Below, piece by piece: positions 26 to 3,322 of a DNA stretch of 52,036 nucleotides (within the stretch, counting starts at the first letter, position 1; every line of letters starts with the position of its first letter). A program made the translations under genes and the position numbers. Under the pieces are notes generated by a model. The model worked only from the letters and a program-made list of their open reading frames with translations, ran no database searches and was not told the origin of the DNA. The DNA is from Sphingopyxis soli (GTDB lineage: Bacteria; Pseudomonadota; Alphaproteobacteria; Sphingomonadales; Sphingomonadaceae): the NCBI RefSeq assembly GCF_018682675.1, contig NZ_JAFMTR010000062.1, positions 1 through 52,036 on the forward strand, read 5' to 3'.

Positions 26-1084
26 CTAGGCGAGCGGGGTCCATTTCTCTTTTTCGGGCAACGGCTCGAAAATTGCGTCGATCCAGTCTTCGGTGACGGC
101 CTCTGCGGTCGGCGGGTCCCATTTCGGGCTGTTGTCCTTGTCGATAATCAGCGCACGGACGCCCTCGATGAAGTCGTGCATCCGCACGACGCGGCTGCCG
201 ATCGCATATTCCTGTGTCATCTGCGCCGCAAAGTCGTGCATCGCGGCGCCTTCCTTCAGCTGGCGCAGCGCGACCTTGCACGTCTGCGGCGATTTCGAAT
301 GCAGCGCCGCAAGTTCCTTCTCCGCCCATTCGCCGCCATCGGCTTCGAGCGCGGCGAGGATGTCCTCATAGGTGTCGCTGGCGAACAGGCGGTTGATCTT
401 GTCGATCTGGTGGGTGATCGCGGCAGGCGGCGCGGTGACCGACAGTTCGCCCAATATGCCACCGATACGGTCGGGGTGCTGCGCGATGCGCTCTTTCGCC
501 TCGGCGAGCTTCTCCGACGGCAGATAATGCGTCGCGAGGCCGAGCGCCAAACATTCCGCCCCATCGAGCCGCGCGCCGGTAAGCGCAAGGAACACGCCGA
601 CGCGGCCTTCGAGGCGCGGCAGATACCAGCCGCCGCCGACGTCGGGGAACAGCCCGATCCCCGTCTCGGGCATCGCGAAGCGCGTATGCTCGGTCGCAAC
701 GCGATATTTCGCCGGCTGCGAAATGCCGACGCCGCCGCCCATAGTGATGCCGTCCATGAAGGCGACGACGGGCTTGGCGTAGGTGAACAGCAGATGGTTG
801 AGGCGATATTCGGTGTGGAAGAAGGCGCGGGCTTCGACGCCGTCCTTCGCACCGCTCTCCGCCAGCATGCGGATGTCGCCGCCGGCGCAGAAGCCGCGGC
901 CCTCGCTATGGTCGACGATCACCGCCTCGACGGCGTCGTCATCGCGCCATTCGAGCAGCGCCTCGATCATCGCCTCGCACATCGGCAGGTTGAGCGCGTG
1001 GATCGCCTTCGGGCGGTTGAGCGACAGACGGCCGATCCGGCCATCGGTCGAAATCAAGACATCGTCTGTGTGATGAGGGGTCAT
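26..1084 (-). CDS. 3-hydroxyisobutyryl-CoA hydrolase (enoyl-CoA hydratase/isomerase fold)
   Basis: Predicted to hydrolyse 3-hydroxyisobutyryl-CoA to 3-hydroxyisobutyrate and CoA in valine breakdown, in the cytoplasm. The 352-residue protein has the crotonase fold: GFCAGGD at about 64-70 and MGGGVG at about 115-120 form the oxyanion-hole region, and the PETGIGLFPDVGG stretch at about 139-151, including the active-site Glu, is typical of the HIBYL-CoA hydrolase branch rather than of hydratases. The ATG overlaps the stop of the upstream acyl-CoA dehydrogenase gene as ATGA, so the two are translationally coupled. With mmsA upstream, the context supports valine catabolism. An enoyl-CoA hydratase of another specificity is the main alternative. 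Confidence 0.88.
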   Translation of the reverse strand: MTPHHTDDVLISTDGRIGRLSLNRPKAIHALNLPMCEAMIEALLEWRDDDAVEAVIVDHSEGRGFCAGGDIRMLAESGAKDGVEARAFFHTEYRLNHLLFTYAKPVVAFMDGITMGGGVGISQPAKYRVATEHTRFAMPETGIGLFPDVGGGWYLPRLEGRVGVFLALTGARLDGAECLALGLATHYLPSEKLAEAKERIAQHPDRIGGILGELSVTAPPAAITHQIDKINRLFASDTYEDILAALEADGGEWAEKELAALHSKSPQTCKVALRQLKEGAAMHDFAAQMTQEYAIGSRVVRMHDFIEGVRALIIDKDNSPKWDPPTAEAVTEDWIDAIFEPLPEKEKWTPLA

Positions 1085-2226
1085 TGGCGCAGCAGATCCC
1101 TTCCGACGATCATCCGCATCACCTGGTTCGTGCCTTCGAGGATCGAATGGACGCGCAGGTCGCGCCAGAAACGCTCGATCGGATAGTCCTTCAGATAACC
1201 GTAGCCGCCGAACAGCTGGAGCGCGTCGTTGACGATCTTGCTGCCATTGTCGGTCGCAAGCCGCTTTGCCATCGCCGAGAAGCGCGACTTGTCGGGGGCG
1301 TTGGCCGTCACCTTCGCCGCGGCAAGATAGAGCAGGGCGCGCGCGGCTTCGAGGTCGGTCGCCATGTCGGCGAGCATGAACTGGGTGTTCTGGAAATCGG
1401 CGACCGGTTGGCCGAACTGCTGGCGGTCCTTGGTGTAGGCGATCGCCTCGTCGAGGCAGCGCTGCGCGCCGCCGAGCGAGCAGGCGCCGATATTGAGGCG
1501 GCCGCCGTCGAGCCCCGCCATCGCGAAACGGAAGCCGTCGCCCTCGGCGCCAACCAGATTCTCCACCGGCACGCGGCAATCCTCGAAGATCACCTGCGCG
1601 GTGGGCGAGGCGTTCCAGCCGAGCTTCTTCTCGGGTGCGCCGAAGCTGAGGCCCGGCGTATCCTTTTCGACGACGAGGCAGGAAATCCCTTTGGACTTCT
1701 CTTCGCCGGTGCGGACCATGCAGACATAGATGTCGTTGACCCCGGCGCCCGAGATGAACTGCTTGGTGCCGTTCAGCACATAATGGTCGCCGTCCCTTTT
1801 CGCCGTCGTCTTGAGCGCCGCGGCGTCGGACCCCGACCCCGGCTCGGTCAGGCAATAGCTCGCGATCTTTTCCATGCTCACGAGGTCGGGCAGAAAGCGC
1901 GCCTTGATCCCGGCGCCGCCGAAGCGGTCGATCATCCACGTCGCCATATTGTGGATCGAGACATAGGCGCTCGTCGCGGGGCAGCCATAGGCCATCGCCT
2001 CCATGATGAGCGCGGCTTCCAACCGGCCGAGCCCGATGCCGCCCGATTCCTCGGCGACGTAGATCGCACCGAAGCCGAGCTCGCCCGCGGCCTTCCACAC
2101 GTCGACGGGATAGTGGCTCTTCTCGTCCCATTCGGCAGCGAAGGGCGTGATGCGGTCCGCGGTGAACTTGCGCGCCATATCCTGAATGGCGAGCTGGTCG
2201 TCGGTAAGCTGGAACTGGTCGGTCAT
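1081..2226 (-). CDS. acyl-CoA dehydrogenase, probably isobutyryl-CoA dehydrogenase
   Basis: FAD-dependent oxidation of an acyl-CoA, from context isobutyryl-CoA to methacrylyl-CoA. The 381-residue length is normal for the family. The N-terminal helical domain is followed by the conserved YCLTEPGSGSDAAALK flavin/substrate segment at about 124-139. The C-terminal domain carries LEGTNQ with the catalytic Glu at about 364. I chose the ATG before TDQFQLTDD rather than an upstream ATG because the latter lies inside the palindromic repeat at 2241-2270, while AAGAGAAA just before 2226 can serve as ribosome site. The gene is coupled by an ATGA overlap to the hydrolase. Exact chain specificity is inferred from the neighbours. 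Confidence 0.87.
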   Translation of the reverse strand: MTDQFQLTDDQLAIQDMARKFTADRITPFAAEWDEKSHYPVDVWKAAGELGFGAIYVAEESGGIGLGRLEAALIMEAMAYGCPATSAYVSIHNMATWMIDRFGGAGIKARFLPDLVSMEKIASYCLTEPGSGSDAAALKTTAKRDGDHYVLNGTKQFISGAGVNDIYVCMVRTGEEKSKGISCLVVEKDTPGLSFGAPEKKLGWNASPTAQVIFEDCRVPVENLVGAEGDGFRFAMAGLDGGRLNIGACSLGGAQRCLDEAIAYTKDRQQFGQPVADFQNTQFMLADMATDLEAARALLYLAAAKVTANAPDKSRFSAMAKRLATDNGSKIVNDALQLFGGYGYLKDYPIERFWRDLRVHSILEGTNQVMRMIVGRDLLRQ

Positions 2227-2240
2227 TTCTTTTTCTCTTG

Positions 2241-2270
2241 CGTCATGCTGACGAAAGTCAGCATCCATTC
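2241..2270. repeat. Palindromic hairpin repeat, left copy flanking the GIY-YIG gene
   Basis: This 30-bp sequence contains the hairpin ATGCTGAC-GAAA-GTCAGCAT (8-bp perfect stem, GNRA-type loop). It is the exact reverse complement of 2607-2636. The two copies flank the GIY-YIG gene. This copy sits between that gene's stop and the ribosome site of the acyl-CoA dehydrogenase gene, and it starts only a few bases from that site. I associate this kind of GTCATGCTGA repeat with sphingomonad genomes, but I cannot count copies here. Confidence 0.9.
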
Positions 2271-2274
2271 CGAA

Positions 2275-2583
2275 CTAGGGTAAAGGCGAAAAGCCGAGCC
2301 CGACGGCCCGATCCTCCCAAAAGGGGTTTTCCTTCTCGATCAGGGCGATCTTCCAGTCCCGCTTCCACGCCTTGAGCTGTTTTTCGCGCGTGATCGCCGA
2401 ATCCATCGAGCCGTGCATCTCGTAGAAGACGAGCCGCTTTACGCCATAACGCTTGGTGAAGCCGCCTGTCAGGCCTTCGCGATGTTGATGAATGCGCGCC
2501 ATCAGGTCGGATGTCACGCCGATGTAGATGGTGCCGTGACGGCCGCTCGCCATGATATACACGCACGGATACCGCTCGCGCAA
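2275..2583 (-). CDS. Small GIY-YIG nuclease-domain protein (YhbQ/COG2827-like)
   Basis: A single-domain GIY-YIG protein of 102 residues. The motif reads VYI at 8-10 and YIG at 20-22, followed by the conserved Arg30 and, in a TREKQLK segment, Glu68, which matches the metal-binding Glu of the family. I chose a TTG start at 2583: GGGAGG lies 6 bases upstream, and the next in-frame ATG would cut off the first half of the GIY motif. The gene sits inside a metabolic operon in the same direction and is bracketed by an exact inverted pair of hairpin repeats (2241-2270 and 2607-2636). Nuclease activity is expected from the family; a role in mobilising or maintaining the repeat is inference only. Confidence 0.85.
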   Translation of the reverse strand: MRERYPCVYIMASGRHGTIYIGVTSDLMARIHQHREGLTGGFTKRYGVKRLVFYEMHGSMDSAITREKQLKAWKRDWKIALIEKENPFWEDRAVGLGFSPLP

Positions 2584-2606
2584 TTTGCGCCTCCCGACAA
2601 AGCGCC

Positions 2607-2636
2607 GAATGGATGCTGACTTTCGTCAGCATGACG
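2607..2636. repeat. Palindromic hairpin repeat, right copy flanking the GIY-YIG gene
   Basis: Exact reverse complement of 2241-2270 over 30 bp, with the same 8-bp stem and GAAA loop. Its bases 2626-2628 are the stop codon of the RidA-family gene, and the last two RidA codons before the stop are also repeat-derived. Similarity between the copies ends sharply at both borders. Confidence 0.9.
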
Positions 2637-3030
2637 AGTCCGACAAAATGGCTTCGGCTTCGATTTCGACTTTCCACTCGGGGCGGATCAGGGCGGGGAT
2701 GACGAGCATCGTCGATGCCGGGCGGATATCGCCAAACATCGCGCCATGCGCGCGGCCGACGAGATCGGCGTCGGCGGGATCGGTAATGTACATGCGGGTG
2801 CGCACGACGTCGGCAGGCGAGCCACCGAGCGCTTCGAGCGCCTCGCGAATGATCGTCAGGCAGCGCGCCGCTTGCGCGCCCGCGTCGCCCGGCGTCGAGG
2901 TGCCGTCGGGCTCGATCGGCGCGCAGCCCGCGACGTCGATGCGATTCCCCACCCGAACCGCACGGCTGTAGCCATAGACGGGTTCGAAAGGCGAGGCAGA
3001 GCTGTGGTTGCGACGCGCCGGATCAGCCAC
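2626..3030 (-). CDS. RidA/YjgF-family protein with repeat-derived C-terminus
   Basis: About 134 residues, the usual length for the YjgF/YER057c/UK114 fold, with the family signature EWKVEIEAEAI near the end. RidA proteins deaminate reactive enamine/imine intermediates made by PLP enzymes. In this copy the Arg used by canonical RidA just before the PKD-KIEIE motif is not at the aligned place (it reads LIRPEWKVEIE), so it may belong to another Rid subgroup. I chose GTG 3030, which overlaps the upstream lipoprotein stop by 8 bases (GTGGCTGA); ATG 3063 is an alternative. The final residues SSC and the TGA come from the hairpin repeat, so the native C-terminus was probably rewritten by its insertion. 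Confidence 0.78.
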   Translation of the reverse strand: MADPARRNHSSASPFEPVYGYSRAVRVGNRIDVAGCAPIEPDGTSTPGDAGAQAARCLTIIREALEALGGSPADVVRTRMYITDPADADLVGRAHGAMFGDIRPASTMLVIPALIRPEWKVEIEAEAILSDSSC

Positions 3031-3322
3031 AGGTGACCCGCTCGATCTTGTAGGCGTCGTCATACATGATGTTCACGCGATCCTGCCGGTAATCCATCGT
3101 CATCGCCGAACGCGGCGGGCCCCAGCGCAAGGTGCGCGCGCCGGTCGCCTTGAGCACCGCAGCGCCGACCTCGGGCGTTGCGGTCTGCCCGACGAAAGAG
3201 GCGCCGCCGTCGGCATTGCACGTCATCGGAGGAGGCGCGGGCGCCGGTTCGGTTCCGTCACCCATCGTGGCGCAGGCGGCAAGCGGCAGCATGGCGGCGG
3301 CGGCGACAAAGCGAATATCCAT
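3023..3322 (-). CDS. I78-family peptidase inhibitor lipoprotein
   Basis: A 99-residue lipoprotein: N-terminal hydrophobic stretch ending in the lipobox LAAC, a Pro/Ala-rich linker, then a C-terminal domain that resembles the inhibitor I78 family (CNADGG-ASFVGQ, TMDYRQDRVNIMYDD, closing VTCG). Two conserved Cys bracket the domain. The ATG at 3322 has GGGGAG 7 bases upstream; a longer start would place charged residues before the signal. It lies between mmsA and ridA in the same direction, and its end overlaps the RidA start. Members are thought to inhibit serine proteases in the periplasm. Why it sits in a valine operon is unclear. Confidence 0.8.
   Translation of the reverse strand: MDIRFVAAAAMLPLAACATMGDGTEPAPAPPPMTCNADGGASFVGQTATPEVGAAVLKATGARTLRWGPPRSAMTMDYRQDRVNIMYDDAYKIERVTCG

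Follow-up and report, generated by a model that had tools for sequence, protein, structure and literature searches.

A small GIY-YIG nuclease gene between inverted CGTC-type hairpin repeats in Sphingopyxis soli, a candidate minimal mobile element

Background

CGTC repeats are defined in a 2013 paper (PMC3733652), which equates the Neisseria ones with dRS3, reports the repeats mainly from alphaproteobacteria, marks them as being without associated transposase genes and suggests that CGTC REPtrons may have disappeared. According to this paper, similar GTAG repeats are moved by REP/RAYT systems, and the CGTC-1 REP has a CGTC head, an 8-bp stem starting with AT, a 4-nt loop and a CCA tail, a description that the repeat studied here fits; CGTC-1 HH dimers have their CGTC ends outside, as does the unit studied here (PMC3733652). 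The layout of that unit, a gene between inverted hairpin repeats, is also that of REP/RAYT units (REPtrons) and IS200/IS605 elements, but the gene between the repeats of a REP/RAYT unit encodes a Y1/HUH transposase and that of the present unit a GIY-YIG protein.

A 2025 paper reportedly describes Ssn, a GIY-YIG family of site-specific single-stranded nucleases from Neisseria with matched target sequences, and in Neisseria Ssn is said to act on repeated sites and to have a role on incoming transforming DNA. A literature search, with subscription journals mostly outside its scope, found no paper that ties GIY-YIG genes to CGTC repeats.

Results

The window is a stretch of 52,036 nt of Sphingopyxis soli (contig NZ_JAFMTR010000062.1). 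Genomes and loci compared carry G- and L-numbers, respectively, G000 being the window's own genome. The unit and its neighbors comprise the following features:

1081..2226, minus strand: acyl-CoA dehydrogenase gene ("ivd"), downstream neighbor, a host gene outside the unit (profile matches)
2241..2636, no strand: whole 396-bp unit, between ridA and ivd (47/60 genus genomes are without it at this site)
2241..2270, plus strand: hairpin repeat copy 1, with CGTC head (2241-2244), stem (2245-2252 / 2257-2264), GAAA loop (2253-2256) and CCATTC tail (2265-2270) (read from the sequence, arm comparison, fold)
2275..2583, minus strand: gene for a small GIY-YIG nuclease of 102 aa, starting with TTG (PF01541, E = 5.1e-15)
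2590..2595, minus strand: ribosome-site-like GGGAGG, 6 nt ahead of the start codon (read from the sequence)
2607..2636, minus strand: hairpin repeat copy 2, an exact inverted copy (sequence, arm comparison, fold)
2626..3063, minus strand: RidA-like gene ("ridA"), upstream neighbor (profile matches)

The arms are 30 nt each, 100% complementary and separated by 336 nt, and both direct their CGTC ends (2633-2636 in copy 2) outward from the nuclease gene. In DNA folding each arm forms an 8-bp stem whose 4-nt loop reads GAAA or TTTC depending on the strand; the z-scores are -5.2 and -4.1 for the 30-mers and weaken to -2.3 and -1.5 once 10 flanking nt are added per side. The ridA stop codon (2626-2628) falls within copy 2. 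The neighboring genes match 3-hydroxyisobutyryl-CoA hydrolase, acyl-CoA dehydrogenase, RidA-like protein, I78 inhibitor and methylmalonate-semialdehyde dehydrogenase; since these are matches to valine-catabolism-type genes, "valine operon" is a fair label. A sequence-only reading of the window was thus accurate in describing an exact 30-bp inverted pair with 8-bp stems and GAAA loop, enclosing only a small GIY-YIG gene with its ribosome site, within a valine operon. At positions 1-23 the contig opens with the hairpin-like CCCCCGCTTTCGCGGGGGCGACG, which is absent from the list of the strict repeat scan; it resembles a fragment of a further CGTC-type repeat, and this would fit an assembly break at a repeat.

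The 102-aa protein is a single compact domain in its AlphaFold model (pLDDT 94.4, pTM 0.86), and no NCBIfam model matched the ORF. In both alignments of relatives, residues Y9, Y20, G22, R30, E67 and N86 do not vary, and all of these except G22 presumably have the catalytic role familiar from GIY-YIG enzymes in general. The closest solved structures found with Foldseek are 1zg2 (UPF0213), then UvrC and Slx1 domains. Between G000 and G041 the nuclease gene differs at 43/291 positions, and dN of 0.048 against dS of 0.82 shows that it is under purifying selection. An internal stop codon interrupts the nuclease gene at G022:C48:18653, G019:C1:269300, G003:C35:225945 and G047:C43:94997, so some units are decaying. 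A known defense system is unlikely, PADLOC having returned a weak partial match to UzuA alone (E = 1.1e-4, residues 7-56), and a phage origin is likewise unlikely, as no record of the phage collection searched with the nuclease matched.

At the site of the unit, ridA and ivd are 0-27 nt apart in 47/60 genus genomes, and none of the 16 uninterrupted junctions that were read out holds a repeat; the sequence-only reading had proposed looking for empty sites in related strains, and these are they. The unit is present at the site in two genomes, G000 and G041, whose four arms have 29 identical nt in common. In G022, G031 and G050 ridA does not adjoin ivd and repeat remnants are kept; G022 has a pair without the gene, and G031 and G050 each have a single altered repeat. 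In G030 and G054 the gap is filled by 485 nt of other sequence (L070 about 620-1103, L071 about 408-893) that has no GIY-YIG match and represents an unrelated second insertion at this junction. The spacing was not scorable in six genomes (G009, G015, G017, G018, G045 and G046). The window's unit is an insertion, probably a single event at one locus. With at most one mismatch and a free loop, the window's repeat occurs in 3/60 genomes (G000, G041 and G022) with at most two matches each, and its own clade has one known site; with two genomes, one site and two repeat copies each, the unit looks quiet in this clade.

A profile search of G000 gave seven GIY-YIG matches. The UvrC-like one, in a 754-aa frame, lacks a flanking pair (best score 10); each of the six small genes has a flanking inverted pair (scores 20-34), and the six repeat sequences all differ. 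The search of 60 genus genomes gave at least about 150 PF01541 places, taken strongest first. The genus sample of 130 distinct genes consists of the six small G000 genes, 30 fetched loci, 80 further places (less L128, dropped as a duplicate) and 15 others picked by DNA likeness to the window's unit, and it leans to strong domain matches. A pair was called when an inverted pair scored at least 15 within 350 bp, and equal-size windows shifted by 650 or 850 bp at the same loci served as controls. With the domain-only profile, 122/130 small GIY-YIG genes and 0/266 shifted windows had a flanking pair, an association beyond chance; a broader first profile, taking in sequence beyond the domain, gave 94/145 vs 2/314, and the domain-only profile was used instead. 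No orientation count is claimed, because the automatic inward/outward labels slip in register; in the clade of L165 and its relatives, the CGTC ends of the best pair face the gene. A second GIY-YIG subfamily (Y.L.C..G.YY.GHTD; L006, L016, L022, L146 and relatives) has flanking repeats without the CGTC head, e.g. GTTCGTGTCGAGCGAAGTCGAGACAC and GTTCGCCCTGAGCTTGTCGAAGGGC.

In the class sample, 70 of the places listed by the search, a pair was found at 30/70 genes vs 1/179 controls: 20/35 at 100 bits or more, 10/15 at 60-100 bits and 0/20 below 60 bits. Other GIY-YIG subfamilies in this sample had a flanking pair at 0/20 genes. In named genomes the count was 50/79 vs 4/296 controls (one of 80 loci yielded no gene in the scan), and three of the four control hits are themselves CGTC-like repeats. 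The inverted repeats that were to be sought around homologs were found far more often than in control windows in the genus, class and named-genome samples. In PLSDB 33 records match, and at four of the five loci fetched (L407-L410) a pair lies near the gene (scores 22-33, controls at most 12). NZ_CP119140.1, NZ_CP119142.1 and NZ_AP026896.1 are chromosome-like PLSDB records of 2.2 and 4.9 Mb filed as plasmids. Locus L406, in a 2.17-Mb record of N. gonorrhoeae filed as a plasmid, has a GIY-YIG ORF 64% identical over 84% of the query, a candidate for the Ssn protein. It sits among many CGTCATTCCCGCG-type repeats (CGTC-1-type); its best pair lies farther out from the gene and one control window also scores 25, the repeats being dense at this locus.

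In protein-tree order, judged by eye, neighbors mostly have a common repeat and other clades have other repeats; the clade next to the window's, at 60-66% identity, carries another repeat, CGTCATGCCGGACTTGATCCGGCATCCA or a near variant. Among the 122 genes, and counting only pairs with unlike outer flanks, repeats agreed (0.7 or more) in 87/108 pairs at 80% protein identity or above, 4/34 at 70-80%, 37/808 at 60-70%, 29/2302 at 50-60%, 12/1803 at 40-50% and 0/1965 below 40%. The rank correlation of protein with repeat was 0.29, against a maximum of 0.09 over 500 permutations. Clades thus tend to have their own repeat, in keeping with the repeat-nuclease partnership that had been suggested from the window. 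Eighteen repeats of the shape with 8-bp stem and 4-nt loop were picked by hand across clades and taxa and compared for paired changes; because of this choice the comparison is an illustration and no unbiased test. In these, 97.9% of stem cells pair (slid versions at most 49%), both sides change in six of the eight stem pairs (3.5 in shuffles; 11/500 reach it) and two-sided cell changes number 28 vs 7.2 in shuffles (0/500 reach it); the number of stem pair types shows no rise (10 vs 10.1 in shuffles).

Cutting the proteins at 72% identity gave 19 groups, and two flank contexts counted as different if blastn gave no match between their 400-bp flanks, taken from 120 bp beyond the arms, a criterion under which very divergent orthologous sites could be miscounted. 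Sixteen of the 19 groups, three of them single genes, sit in a single context, and most units therefore look vertically inherited. The multi-context groups hold 22 genes in five contexts, 14 in six and eight in eight. The last, a sister group that occurs twice in G014 and twice in G024, has units of 394-396 bp, the window's being 396 bp; left-hand homology among the eight begins at (T)CGTC, right-hand homology stops at or near GACG, some right flanks are weakly alike, and no abutting direct repeat (target duplication) was seen at any of the eight. The two G024 copies, L160 and L162, have 17 nt of upstream flank in common directly before CGTC, perhaps carried along. At the site of the L019 clade a gap of 6 nt separates the neighboring genes in at least five genomes (G001, G012, G016, G022 and G042) and one of 658 nt in G004, which has the unit plus roughly 250 nt of other DNA, making this site less clean. 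The L019-clade units of G019 and G030 lie in one operon neighborhood with that of G004, on differing sides of one neighboring gene.

The window's repeat has two copies in the 3.63-Mb genome at up to two mismatches. Other types in G000 are the GTTCGTGTCGAGCGAAGTCGAGACAC type, at 20 places with up to three mismatches, including two at its nuclease gene, and the GTCATYCCCGCG type, at seven places. For the CGTCATGCTGAACTTG type, the matching nuclease clade was defined by an identity of 72% or more, the next-best match being at 61%. The eight genomes with this clade have 2, 16, 29, 34, 36, 37, 63 and 89 copies, and the 52 others have 0-72, 41 of these 0-6 (Mann-Whitney p = 2.3e-4, kinship uncorrected). 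Orphan CGTCATGCTGAACTTG-type repeats number 72 in G048 and 57 in G000, where the best nuclease match to the clade is at 60%. Among the CGTCATGCTGAACTTG-type loci, gene-less pairs with outward CGTC ends enclose 28-50 nt in three cases, and in seven genomes there are units whose repeats enclose 336-337 nt.

Transposases were searched for in the 60 genus genomes with PF01797 (Y1/HUH) only. Matches were found in 11/60 genomes, with none in G000 or G041; of the six genomes of the eight-place group (G004, G014, G024, G036, G042 and G051), only G004 has one.

Discussion

That repeat and nuclease belong together is well supported, as is movement of the eight-place sister group. Our main reading, given a probability of about 0.5, is that the 396-bp unit is a minimal mobile element with a predicted nuclease that recognizes its own hairpin, nicks the ends and helps the unit move. 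Such a nuclease would recognize its own repeat as a single-stranded hairpin and nick it at the ends of the unit, and the nicking would help the unit, and also gene-less repeat pairs, to move. Sequence-specific binding, single-strand cutting and the cut position are predictions, as is this nuclease rather than another enzyme driving movement, and the window's own unit would have moved in the same way; the most likely prediction has the nuclease itself both cutting the hairpin and driving movement.

The mobile-element reading is supported by the flanking pairs (122/130 vs 0/266, with other GIY-YIG subfamilies at 0/20), the clade-wise repeats and paired stem changes, the site uninterrupted in 47/60 genomes and its gene-less remnants, the eight contexts with units of 394-396 bp and no abutting direct repeat, dN of 0.048 vs dS of 0.82, and the absence of Y1/HUH matches from G000, G041 and five of the six genomes of the mobile group. 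It is weakened by the 16/19 groups in a single context, a window repeat that is not amplified, abundant repeats without the nuclease clade (57 in G000, 72 in G048), agreement in 4/34 pairs at 70-80% identity, flanking beyond the genus (30/70 and 50/79) that falls short of nearly all, and transposases other than the searched Y1/HUH that could move the unit.

A tentative extension, with odds a little short of even, is that GIY-YIG proteins are the missing enzyme of CGTC repeats, standing in for the tyrosine transposase, that the units, at about 395 bp, rank among the smallest self-mobilizing elements, that the gene-less pairs are their non-autonomous derivatives, and that nuclease and repeat fit clade by clade as lock and key. 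A clade-matched nuclease makes the open question of the missing transposase directly testable (PMC3733652). The many natural nuclease-hairpin pairs could help to explain hairpin reading by a domain of some 85 residues, and if the nuclease drives movement, it would be a second enzyme fold doing the job of RAYTs.

The strongest rival, possible but less likely, has the nuclease cutting its cognate repeat on single-stranded DNA in the cell (e.g. transforming DNA), with recombination or transformation spreading the unit passively. Most clades sitting in one context would fit such a role, as would the 64%-identical protein among CGTC-1-type repeats in N. gonorrhoeae and the part in transformation that Ssn reportedly plays in Neisseria. 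The eight contexts with homology from the repeat onward, and the two copies each in G014 and G024, nevertheless ask for a moving mechanism, as plain homologous recombination would need flank likeness.

Improbable by comparison is a RAYT or IS transposase that moves the repeats with the nuclease as passenger. REP/RAYT systems do move similar GTAG repeats (PMC3733652), and G004 and G002 have both a Y1/HUH transposase and many repeats, but such transposases were found in 11/60 genus genomes and in neither G000 nor G041, which makes a RAYT an unlikely mobilizer within the scope of a Y1/HUH search, and a passenger would not be expected to track repeat type by clade.

Some GIY-YIG enzymes are homing endonucleases. 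An enzyme of this kind, cutting one allele-specific site and being copied there by repair, would agree with the protein family and with a weak structural match to I-TevI (rank 19, E = 0.74), yet it is very unlikely here, since the 16 uninterrupted ridA-ivd junctions read hold no repeat and one sister group occupies eight different contexts rather than one allelic target. The least probable reading, hairpins acting as RNA elements (terminators or stabilizers) merely beside a small gene, is suggested by the place of the unit inside an operon and by repeats that would fold as RNA too, but it is set aside because a matched inverted pair accompanies 122/130 genes and is missing from 266/266 shifted windows and from 20/20 GIY-YIG genes of other subfamilies, and because repeat type tracks protein clade.

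Returning to the mobile-element reading, the window's unit can be set against the known systems. It differs from a CGTC-1 dimer in having a nuclease gene in place of the spacer (PMC3733652), and its repeat, with two copies in G000, differs from the high-copy CGTC-1 REP. The lack of a visible target duplication in the eight-place group is a likeness to IS200/IS605 elements and REPtrons. UPF0213 (1zg2), the UvrC N-terminal domain and Slx1 have their fold in common with the window's protein, although sequence likeness to 1zg2 is weak (phmmer E = 0.0026; 26% identity in Foldseek). The sequence-only reading had compared the unit with REP/RAYT pairs and called it a candidate undescribed system; the REP/RAYT-like repeat-nuclease pairing holds (122/130 vs 0/266), and "undescribed" is doubtful given Ssn, a GIY-YIG family that is said to act on repeated sites in Neisseria. 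Ssn is a small single-domain GIY-YIG protein, as is the window's protein; the present units may stand apart from it in their signs of mobility, namely repeat-bounded units some 395 bp long, uninterrupted sites and a group in eight contexts.
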